The position numbers were made by a program, and so were the translations under genes. Positions 7,258 through 63,980 of a DNA stretch of 64,000 nt are shown here, piece by piece. Location: contig CP136052.1 of the NCBI GenBank assembly GCA_032620915.1, forward strand, positions 3,294,001 to 3,358,000, read 5' to 3'. The notes below the pieces were generated by a model, which saw nothing but the letters and a program-made list of their open reading frames with translations, searched no databases and was not told the DNA's origin. This DNA comes from Oscillospiraceae bacterium NTUH-002-81. Lineage in GTDB: Bacteria; Bacillota; Clostridia; Lachnospirales; Lachnospiraceae. Positions within the stretch are counted from its first letter, which is position 1; each line of letters starts with the position of its first letter.

Positions 7258-7554
7258 GATCGTTCTCCTTTTTTTAATAAATAAAAGAGCCCCTTACAGA
7301 CATGCATCTGTAAAGGGCGAATGAAACGCGGTACCACCTTTTTTCCATATCCGGCTGTCAAAACTGCCGCATATGCTCTCACGATCCGGTAACGGGGATC
7401 AGGCGGGACTGCCTACTGCTACATTCAGCAATCCAACTCCGAAGCTACCTTCTTTCCGCATTTCTTCAAGAAGCCTCACAGCCACGGACTTCTCTCTCTG
7501 GCAAGCATCGACGGAAATACTCCTCTTCTTCCATGTTTTTTTCATATCAGTACC
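7258..7554 (-). promoter_or_regulatory. T-box riboswitch leader of valS
   Basis: Reading the minus strand, this ~290-base leader ends with the hallmark T-box AAAGGTGGTACCGCG (plus-strand 7327-7342), then a terminator hairpin and valS. The upstream Stem I region holds an AGAGA-type bulge (CCAGAGAGAGAAGTC) and a GGAGTTGG element typical of Stem I. A GTA triplet inside GAAGGTAGCTTC, just before GGAGTTGG, is the likely specifier, which fits a valine codon. By the known mechanism, uncharged tRNA-Val would stabilise the antiterminator and turn on valS and the downstream genes. The exact specifier is inferred by position only. Confidence 0.92.
7281..7319 (-). terminator. T-box-controlled intrinsic terminator
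   Basis: On the minus strand GCCCTTTACAGATGCATGTCTGTAAGGGGC forms a hairpin followed by TCTTTTATTTATT, directly between the T-box sequence and the valS RBS. This is the attenuator expected of a T-box leader. Confidence 0.9.
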
Positions 7555-19538: not shown

Positions 19539-19699
19539 CCAGTTCAGCACTACTTTACAGCGGGGAAGCTTTTATGCTGGCATAAAAAGCTGACCGATGG
19601 AAAGTAGTAGTTGAGCGCCATGTCATGAGCAAAAATGAGCTGCGTCAGCAGCGGAAAGCCCGGCCACGGGCGATTTTGCGAATGGCGCGGCTGAACTGG
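19539..19699 (+). repeat. Multi-hairpin repeat, family 1, copy 1
   Basis: A 161-base unit bounded by CCAGTTCAGC and its inverse GCTGAACTGG. Inside are a long AT-rich hairpin (ACTACTTT... with AAGTAGTAGT), GAGCGCC that can pair with GGCGC near the 3' end, a GCTGC/GCAGC hairpin, a GCCCG/CGGGC hairpin and the conserved GATTTTGCGAATGGCGCG. Copies at 29008-29164 and 54575-54732 keep the same helices with different bases. It holds no credible protein gene. Confidence 0.85.
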
Positions 19700-19726: not shown

Positions 19727-19824
19727 AAAATGAGCTGCGTCAGCAGCGGAAAGCCCGGCCACGGGCGATTTTGCGAATGGCGCGGCTGAACTGGAATTAA
19801 TTGGCGCGGCTGAACTGGAATTAA
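19727..19824 (+). repeat. Partial tandem duplications of the family-1 repeat 3' half
   Basis: AAAATGAGCTGCGTCAGCAGC through GGCGCGGCTGAACTGG repeats the 3' half of copy 1 without change (about 70 bases). It is followed by a further ~27-base duplication of GGCGCGGCTGAACTGGAATTAATTG. This points to local slippage or recombination. With copy 1, the repeats fill most of the 19.5-19.83 kb gap. Confidence 0.8.
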
Positions 19825-28964: not shown

Positions 28965-29007
28965 TACCTTTTTTTGAAAATCTTCTCCTTTTTTAGTATA
29001 ATGACTA

Positions 29008-29164
29008 CCAGTTCACTCGCATATTCTGTGGACAGATTTCGTGCTCGCATGAAAATCTGTCTGCGGAAATATGCGAAGGGAGCGCCTTTTCATGAGCAAA
29101 AGTGAGCTGCGAAGCAGCGGAGAGCATCTCTGATGCGGTTTTGCGAATGGCGCGGGTGAACTGG
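29008..29164 (+). repeat. Multi-hairpin repeat, family 1, copy 2
   Basis: 157 bases bounded by CCAGTTCAC and GTGAACTGG. Inner helices are CGCATATT/AATATGCG with a nested GACAGATTT/AAATCTGTC, GCGCC with GGCGC, GCTGC-GAA-GCAGC and GCATC-TCT-GATGC. It occupies the divergent space between the LuxR gene and azlC, ending 13 bases before the azlC -35 box. Confidence 0.85.
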
Positions 29165-29224: not shown

Positions 29225-29929
29225 ATGAAGAAAAAATTACTGTCCTTTGCTTTCCTCACGACTTTGCCGGTCTTTTTCGGCTATCTGTTCCTGGGCATCG
29301 CCTTCGGGCTGCTCCTGGCTGACGCAGGCTACGGCGCCCCCTGGGCCCTTTTTATGAGTATTTTTGTCTATGCCGGTTCCGCCCAGTTCATGCTGGCAGG
29401 CCTTCTCGCAGGAGGCACTTCGATTCTGACTGTTTCCATTATGACATTGCTGATCAACAGCCGCCACATGTTTTACGGGTTGTCTTTTCTGGAAAAATTC
29501 CGCCAGATGGGGCGGCGGTATCCTTACATGGTATTTTCCCTGACCGATGAGACCTATTCCCTGATCTGCTCCCTGAAAGTACCGCCAGAGTATGCCGAAG
29601 ACGATGCCCTGTTCCTGATCTCCCTGCTGGATCATCTCTACTGGATCTTCGGATCCGTGCTGGGCGCCCTGCTGGGACAGATCGTCCCCTTCGACACCAC
29701 CGGCATCGACTTTGCCATGACCGCTCTGTTCATCGTCATTTTCACCGAACAGTGGCTGTCCTATCCTACCCATCTGCCCGCCATCCTCGGCTTCATCTGC
29801 GCTGTCATCAGCCTGGTGATCTTCGGGCCGTCCAACTTCATCCTGCCCGCACTGATCGTCACTGTGACATTGCTGTTTGTCTGCCGCAGGTACCTGGAAC
29901 CATTTACAAAGGAGGAAGAACAAGCATGA
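29225..29929 (+). CDS. azlC: AzlC-family branched-chain amino-acid exporter, large subunit
   Basis: 234 residues from ATG 29225, with AGGAGG 8 bases upstream; the longer frame before it is repeat DNA. About seven hydrophobic segments and the family segments AGSAQFMLAGLL and NSRHMFYGLSF are visible. AzlC works with the small AzlD protein to export branched-chain amino acids (family name LIV-E). The stop overlaps the azlD start (GCATGA), the standard azlCD coupling. Inner-membrane protein. Confidence 0.92.
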   Translation: MKKKLLSFAFLTTLPVFFGYLFLGIAFGLLLADAGYGAPWALFMSIFVYAGSAQFMLAGLLAGGTSILTVSIMTLLINSRHMFYGLSFLEKFRQMGRRYPYMVFSLTDETYSLICSLKVPPEYAEDDALFLISLLDHLYWIFGSVLGALLGQIVPFDTTGIDFAMTALFIVIFTEQWLSYPTHLPAILGFICAVISLVIFGPSNFILPALIVTVTLLFVCRRYLEPFTKEEEQA

Positions 29930-30373: not shown

Positions 30374-30447
30374 CGATGCGTGGCTCAGCTTGGTAGAGCA
30401 CTACGTTAGGGACGTAGGGGTCGCAGGTTCAAATCCTGTCGCATCGA
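30374..30447 (+). tRNA. tRNA-Pro (anticodon AGG)
   Basis: A 74-base cloverleaf with perfect 7-base acceptor stem CGATGCG/CGCATCG, D-arm with GGTAGAGC, anticodon stem CTACG/CGTAG with loop TTAGGGA (anticodon AGG, proline) and T-arm GCAGGTTCAAATCCTGT. CCA is not encoded. T-rich sequence follows directly. A34 is unusual for bacterial proline tRNAs. Confidence 0.93.
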
Positions 30448-54574: not shown

Positions 54575-54732
54575 CCAGTTCACCCGCGCCATTCGCAAAA
54601 CCGCATCTTTGATGCTCTCCGCTGCGTCGCAGCTCATTTTTGCTCATTAGAAGGCGCTCCCTTTGTATATTCGCACAGCCAGATTTTCATGCAAGCATGA
54701 AATCTGACCATACGAATATACAAGTGAACTGG
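54575..54732 (-). repeat. Multi-hairpin repeat, family 1, copy 3
   Basis: 158 bases, minus orientation, bounded by CCAGTTCAC and GTGAACTGG. The variable hairpin is TTGTATATTCG/CGAATATACAA with a nested CAGATTTCATGC/GCATGAAAATCTG. Then come GAGCGCC, GCTGC-GAC-GCAGC, GCATC-AAA-GATGC and GATGCGGTTTTGCGAATGGCGCG. It fills much of the 306-base gap between the AI-2E-family gene and the TetR gene. Confidence 0.85.
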
Positions 54733-63906: not shown

Positions 63907-63980
63907 TCGAAGTGACGTGATTCGAACACGCGACCTCTGCGTCCCGAACGCAGCGCTCTACCAAGCTGAGCCACACTTCG
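63907..63980 (-). tRNA. tRNA-Pro (anticodon CGG)
   Basis: 74-base cloverleaf on the minus strand. Acceptor stem CGAAGTG/CACTTCG, D-arm GGCTCAGCTTGGTAGAGC, anticodon stem CTGCG/CGCAG with loop TTCGGGA (anticodon CGG) and T-arm GCGTGTTCGAATCACGT. No encoded CCA. Shares its D-arm with tRNA-Pro(AGG) at 30.4 kb. Confidence 0.93.

Follow-up and report, generated by a model that had tools for sequence, protein, structure and literature searches.

The closest described relative of the repeats analysed here is the Clostridiales-1 RNA (RF01699), which excerpts of its original report present as probably an RNA, neither cis-regulatory nor a riboswitch, found in Clostridiales and in the human gut (Weinberg et al. 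2010, PMC2864571). A second comparison is with the bcr1-bcr18 repeats of the Bacillus cereus group, portrayed in parts of two reports as high-copy, intergenic and MITE-like, with about half of the copies transcribed and with a conserved secondary structure in bcr10 and bcr18 that is predicted to act as RNA (PMC3446304, PMC6542083). The family studied here has three full-length copies in the window, the whole 64,000-nt stretch of DNA that was analysed. It shares with RF01699 the closing stem, the long hairpin with its UGCUUGCA-type loop, the CGCC..CAUGAGCA..UGCGAAUG core and the order of the helices, but in the Rfam consensus the closing stem has another sequence than the terminal inverted repeat (TIR) of our elements. 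With the bcr repeats, which we liken by those partial published descriptions only, it has in common that it is high-copy, intergenic, MITE-like and structured; the mobility of the bcr repeats is tied there to TTTAT repeats, whereas here we find 8-bp duplications and an IS66-type candidate.

We think it likely that these repeats are MITEs for which an IS66-type transposase acts in trans, that selection maintains their interior fold, and that the window genome carries an orphaned old expansion of them. The initial annotation had left a choice between a MITE and an unannotated structured RNA; both sides apply, as a MITE with an RNA-like interior fold related to RF01699, and the either/or falls away. 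The kind of element is known. What appears to be new in the literature searched is the combination, together with the mobility reading of a Clostridiales-1-like motif, and searches of open-licence papers found no paper that links RF01699 to a transposon. The motif, whose Rfam relative is an orphan family dating from 2010, would thereby gain a mobility mechanism, made up of a mini-transposon, an 8-bp duplication and a candidate enzyme, which would explain the copy number and the patchiness of the RNA motif. The question that this poses is why a mini-transposon dependent only on its ends keeps five covarying helices.

Copies in the window and their fold

Copy 1 (19539..19699, + strand), copy 2 (29008..29164, + strand) and copy 3 (54575..54732, - strand) score 149.1, 170.4 and 174.9 bits, respectively, with a covariance model built from 38 copies. 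Sequence and folds both bear out the initial annotation, which had put three intergenic copies at these positions with a shared plan of helices. The element is about 155-165 bp long with no plausible gene inside; the open reading frames that run over the copies (107 aa across copy 1, a GTG start in copy 2 and 137 aa over copy 3) are in our judgement mechanical. The claim that no transposase is linked also stands, as none was apparent by eye among the listed ORFs around the three copies. Single-sequence folds of each copy with a few flanking bases reproduce the helix plan, with z values of -6.4, -7.3 and -7.8 for copies 1, 2 and 3, and in no case did any of 200 shuffles fold as well as the real copy.

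In copy 2, the TIR-derived 5' arm of P1 (29008..29016, + strand, as for the helices that follow) pairs with 29156-29164; the corresponding stem of copy 1 is CCAGTTCAGC / GCTGAACTGG. The long variable hairpin P2 (29017..29078) carries two-sided changes in most of its pairs (helices 3 and 4) in other copies. P3 (29082..29153) is formed by GCGCC (29082-29086) with GGCGC (29149-29153) and, further inside, by GCAAAA (29096-29101) with TTTTGC (29139-29144), and it encloses the P4 hairpin (29106..29118; GCTGC/GCAGC) and the P5 hairpin (29124..29136). P5 is GCATC/GATGC here and GCCCG/CGGGC in copy 1, and five of its five pairs (helix 8) show a two-sided change. The inner P3 pairing joins GCAAAA, which lies in ATGAGCAAAA, to TTTTGC, which lies in TTTTGCGAAT, and one of its pairs changes from A-U to G-C on both sides in 5 of the 38 copies. 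These stretches had been described as conserved single-strand text; part of that text is paired.

Copy 1 is closely followed by two partial 3' copies, the fragments mentioned in the initial annotation. At 19727..19795 (+ strand), 69 nt repeat the 3' part of copy 1 with 100% identity, and at about 19803..19818 (+ strand) the last 16 nt of the element recur, followed by AATTAATT as after the first partial copy. Other features lie close to or within the copies. A promoter-like TTGAAA-17-TATAAT (11/12) occupies 28974-29002 and ends 6 nt before copy 2, so that transcription from it into the gene near 29225 would start where the element has its 5' end. Copy 3 follows a terminator-like hairpin of its own strand at a distance of 9 nt. 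All three copies have a terminator-like score on their antisense strand, given by the P4 hairpin and the TCATTTTTGC that comes after it (19639-19652, 29106-29118 and 54621-54633). At Rfam gathering thresholds, the same window holds a T-box leader (7310-7542) and tRNA genes (30374-30447 and 63907-63980).

At a lax threshold, at which the RF01699 figures for the window cover copies 1 and 2, both copies match this Rfam model over its full length (1-166), with boundaries exactly those of the element and with some non-standard pairs, at 24.2 and 33.4 bits. The model also matches, again over its full length, an element of genome G250 (L273, 35.6 bits) and one of Eubacterium ramulus (L140, 26.6 bits), these being 2 of 13 loci at E <= 0.05. 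Since all of the scores (24.2-35.6 bits) lie below the gathering score of 48, the family is, judged by model score, a relative of RF01699 and not a member by Rfam's rule.

Covariation across the family

The 3.62-Mb window genome (G000) holds 46 matches by BLAST and 99 by the covariance model at E <= 1e-3, a few of the weakest being the opposite strand of real copies. Carried into related genomes, as the initial annotation had proposed, the model search gave element matches in 7 of 41 genomes: 71 in the window genome under a stricter filter, 31 in G006, 5 in G015, 2 each in G016 and G001, and 1 each in G002 and G017. This model, built from the window genome, scores up to 117.6 bits on G006 copies, and the patchy copy number fits a mobile element.

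The alignment (A1) comprises 38 of the 39 clear-ended copies, one with an insertion having been left out; they come from 45 pattern finds, of which one was false and others were truncated. A separate full-length set holds 63 copies, namely the model matches of at least 98 bits minus two, one internally deleted and one overlapping another. Pairing holds in 93.3% of the cells of the 38-copy alignment, and for 33 of the 53 pairs there is at least one copy in which both bases are changed. The alignment was made with MAFFT and is not structure-aware, the structure itself was derived from it, and its copies, all from a single genome, are not independent; on it the covariation score reaches 0.364, compared with 0.145 for shuffled and at most 0.066 for slid versions, and 0 of 500 shuffles reach the real score. 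The compensatory changes first noted in three copies are thus real and far beyond chance, and the possibility that more copies would show no covariation beyond chance did not materialize in the 38.

Two-sided changes are located in P1, P2, P5, one inner-P3 pair and one P4 cell, and there are none in the outer P3. Outside the TIR, covariation is found in helices 3, 4 and 8. G-T cells outnumber A-C cells in the interior helices (62 vs 39), which points weakly to the + strand as the one that folds. The earlier claim that covariation means selection on structure holds for the interior helices, which show selection on base pairing; it does not extend to the outer stem, whose covariation alone is no proof of RNA because that stem is a transposon terminal inverted repeat. 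Helix 1 counts as weak evidence, since TIR arms can co-vary without any RNA. A warning attaches to covariation-based RNA discovery, which can pick up transposons because covariation between two inverted repeats looks like that within a closing stem.

The strong interior covariation and the full-length similarity to RF01699 also speak for dispersed, true small-RNA genes of the Clostridiales-1 type, whose mobility would be incidental or come about via larger elements. So does the promoter-like site ending 6 nt before copy 2, and promoter-like sites lie sense-upstream of 7 of the 63 G000 copies, as compared with 2 antisense (shuffled mean 2.0, maximum 6). In G006 and in a Roseburia MAG, however, the promoter signal is close to what chance would give (2 of 26, mean 0.9, and 3 of 34, mean 1.0, respectively), and the flanks of the copies are unrelated to each other apart from a weak AT-rich target bias, so that no promoter travels with the element. 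The 8-bp duplications at the element's very ends and the mixed orientation of the neighbours count against such genes as well, and we regard them as improbable. A cis-regulatory RNA was rejected on the orientations of the neighbours of the 63 copies, which are (-,-) in 24, (-,+) in 17, (+,+) in 13 and (+,-) in 9 by crude ORF calls.

Terminal inverted repeats and target duplications

In relatives, the arms of the closing stem are the terminal inverted repeats of a transposon, with a canonical 13-mer, GTAACAGTTCAGC, at both ends. This 13-mer occurs in 68 of 299 family genomes, with up to 167 sites in one of them (G048), and the reversed pattern has 1 site overall. In G006, 8-bp direct repeats sit outside GTAACAGTTC...GAACTGTTAC: among 26 copies out of the 32 G006 model matches, 8 have a perfect 8-bp duplication, 10 one of at least 7/8 and 13 one of at least 6/8, against shuffled means of 0.30, 0.55 and 1.95. 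Across 74 distinct TIR-paired elements of relatives, a set picked from L077-L349 by TIR or model matches, in which a small number of loci are from G000 and one left end is paired with two right ends, 29 carry perfect 8-bp duplications and 39 carry duplications of at least 7/8; in 1000 shuffles the latter number averages 0.86, with a maximum of 5. The guess that the repeats could be a MITE was therefore right for the family, given the TIRs and the 8-bp duplications of its relatives.

TIR-bearing elements vary in content and in size, from 42 to 255 bp, and their various interiors include the window family's fold, seen with the window-derived model at, e.g., L077, L194 and L205-L208 of G006. Other interiors are also structured: four hand-picked elements with their ends removed give z values of -2.9, -4.5, -3.5 and -7.0, and two more hand-picked elements, with the paired ends included, give -8.7 and -7.4. 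Perfect duplications flank two 42-bp elements that hold little beyond the two ends (L259 and L263) and an 85-bp element that keeps P1 and P2 (L269). Because near-ends-only elements carry perfect duplications, we infer that the ends suffice for insertion and that an element can move without the inner fold in cis; alternatively, the 42-bp elements could have lost their interior after insertion. The same elements leave the suggested role of single-stranded DNA or a cruciform in mobility unsupported. If the ends suffice, the inner fold would be under some other selection. We hold it possible, if rather doubtful, that IS66-type ends are a dispersal platform, by which one transposase type spread several structured RNA passengers through Lachnospiraceae, the Clostridiales-1-like fold included, and that these passengers work as RNA wherever they landed. 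Their folds would then be kept by transcript or host selection and not by transposition, since elements of little but ends insert.

The duplication tests covered the copies with found ends (60 of 63 in G000, 34 of 37 in the Roseburia MAG, 16 of 18 others and 26 of 26 in G006), and they place the window genome apart from G006. The comparison of flanks that had been suggested thus gave 8-bp duplications in relatives, but 0, 1 and 1 of 60 window-genome copies have one at the expected place at 8/8, 7/8 and 6/8, and the empty site of copy 2, an orthologous locus of genome G003 that lacks the element, is too diverged to place the joint. The exact 13-mer TIR has 0 copies in the window genome, and a 12-mer TIR with one mismatch is found at 28 sites there, vs 15 for the reversed control. 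An exact 7-mer is shared somewhere across the element in 5 of 60 copies (shuffled mean 1.0, maximum 4), so a few decayed duplications may survive. The drifted ends still pair at positions -1 to -4, to which the flank pairing of G000 is confined (z of 5.4, 6.3, 3.6 and 2.9 in 39 copies). Such pairing is expected if the closing stem is still selected, and also if TIRs decay slowly. Insertion into palindromic targets was rejected, as G006 showed that the pairing flank bases belong to the TIR. PF03050 has no match in the window genome, which would be an old expansion, now without its enzyme.

No target duplications were found among the Roseburia MAG copies (0 of 34). The copies of this MAG (CANRSX, L127-L176) have TTTT at -9 to -12, AAA/TTT outer arms and no target duplication. 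Hairpins, intergenic scatter and a fixed upstream TTTT in several duplication-less families recall REP- or IS200/IS605-type hairpin elements, which would be moved by a Y1 transposase. The sole Y1_Tnp match in the window genome is partial (profile 54-87 of 121) and has no copy beside it, and the 8-bp duplications in relatives contradict an origin of this kind, which we judge extremely improbable; to our knowledge, Y1 enzymes do not make 8-bp duplications.

An extra direct copy lies within 60 nt downstream of the full copy in 23 of 144 cases (10 of 63 in G000, 7 of 37 in the Roseburia MAG, 5 of 18 in others and 1 of 26 in G006), and upstream in 1, the reciprocal of a full tandem pair. At L195, the spacer to the extra copy is exactly 8 bp. 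At L081 8378-9020 (G015), four element copies lie head to tail with almost no spacer and with ordinary genes on either side. Target-primed reverse transcription of a structured RNA, i.e., retrotransposition, might be read from the 10 of 63 G000 full copies that have a 5'-lacking extra copy just downstream and none upstream. Yet 5 of the 7 downstream extra copies of the Roseburia MAG keep the 5' part, partial copies that stand alone have lost one end or the other, and the duplications have a fixed length of 8 bp. Reverse transcription as a reading of the truncated neighbours is contradicted by these mixed truncation ends, and the chance that the family spread in this way is vanishingly small.

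Candidate transposase and distribution

As a rule, the ends of IS66-family elements begin with GTAA. The MITE-type ends also begin with GTAA and come with an 8-bp duplication, as in a complete classical IS66 element that we found in genome G018 (L212; GTAAGCG ends and an 8-bp duplication), and two Paracoccus IS66 elements are tabled with 8 in the same column in the part of a report that lists them (PMC3281130). Unlike IS66 insertion sequences, the repeats code for nothing, and the complete IS66 elements found here end in GTAAGCG and not in the MITE TIR.

The extended TIR GTAACAGTTCAGCCTTTTA, with at most 1 mismatch, is present in 13 of 397 genomes. At locus L332, it closes a stretch in which the coding sequence for an IS66-type transposase C-terminus stops 44 nt short of the MITE-type TIR (PF03050, 1.4e-5; NF033517, 5e-15, the match reaching position 385 of the 387 in the profile), and in a protein search with this IS66 fragment 399 of 400 candidates were relatives at E <= 1e-3. 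In G250, a repeat has the TIR at both ends (A and B), with six contigs ending and seven beginning about 53 nt inside; 6 of these ends and 4 of the starts were read. At end B, I-F-stop lies 44 nt from the TIR, matching L332. In two pairs of contig ends, an A and a B have the same 8-bp flank (CAATTGGG in one pair, CCAATATC in the other). From these contig edges, we read the repeat as a multi-copy IS66-type element whose interior is unassembled. A complete autonomous element with GTAACAGTTCAGCC at both ends was not recovered in the genomes searched. Assemblies of this kind often lose multi-copy IS elements. PF03050 has matches in 6 of 18 genomes and in 9 of 16 of a TIR-rich set, and its absence from the other 7 TIR-rich genomes is due either to loss or to assembly drop-out. 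Widely separated TIRs in G086 and G302 enclose long stretches that were rejected as autonomous candidates, having no matching duplication. At L291 577-2431 (G302), exact TIRs lie 1,855 bp apart around a 613-aa ORF with no matching 8-bp duplication.

Those 7 of 16 TIR-rich genomes in which PF03050 is without a match would suit a non-IS66 transposase serving the same MITE family, with the IS66 C-terminus beside the TIR as a chance neighbour; so would the surroundings of the L332 fragment, which are crowded with other IS remains, an IS1182-like gene included. Against a chance neighbour, the distance from stop to TIR is 44 nt in L332 and also, where readable, in the G250 repeat, and against a non-IS66 enzyme the complete IS66 element in G018 shows both GTAA ends and 8-bp duplications. 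We consider this alternative unlikely and keep to an IS66-type enzyme. An IS66-family transposase using the same ends would move the mini-transposons in trans, each insertion making the 8-bp target duplication that is shown in relatives. The window genome would then hold an old orphaned expansion, in which the ends have drifted, the duplications have decayed and the transposase is gone. The interior fold would be kept not for the sake of transposition but for action as RNA after insertion, perhaps by way of transcript stability or of making an insertion in transcripts tolerable.

Of the 50 loci returned by a pattern scan of GTDB contigs, one Roseburia MAG supplies 36. The titles of the 50 name Lachnospiraceae, Roseburia or Eubacterium ramulus, from which we take the family of the genomes studied to be Lachnospiraceae. 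The copies of G006 look young, since their mean pairwise identity is 0.85, compared with 0.80 in the Roseburia MAG and 0.73 in G000. A phage or plasmid link was rejected: a scan of viral_contigs with the long two-part element pattern gave 0 stretches, and a search with copy 2 found no match in plasmids. Part of copy 1 has matches in six fecal 'Bacteriophage sp.' records, which are unannotated. For the relative of the IS66 fragment named P0002, no relative was confirmed in viral_contigs, the 57 plasmid records all lie below 60% identity and 1 phage record reaches 28%. At two sites an element lies close to a structural RNA gene: in G016, a copy (L078 1223-1666) starts 84 nt past the second of two tRNA genes, and in G203 a TIR-bearing element (L271 494-667) lies 89 nt from the RNase P RNA gene.
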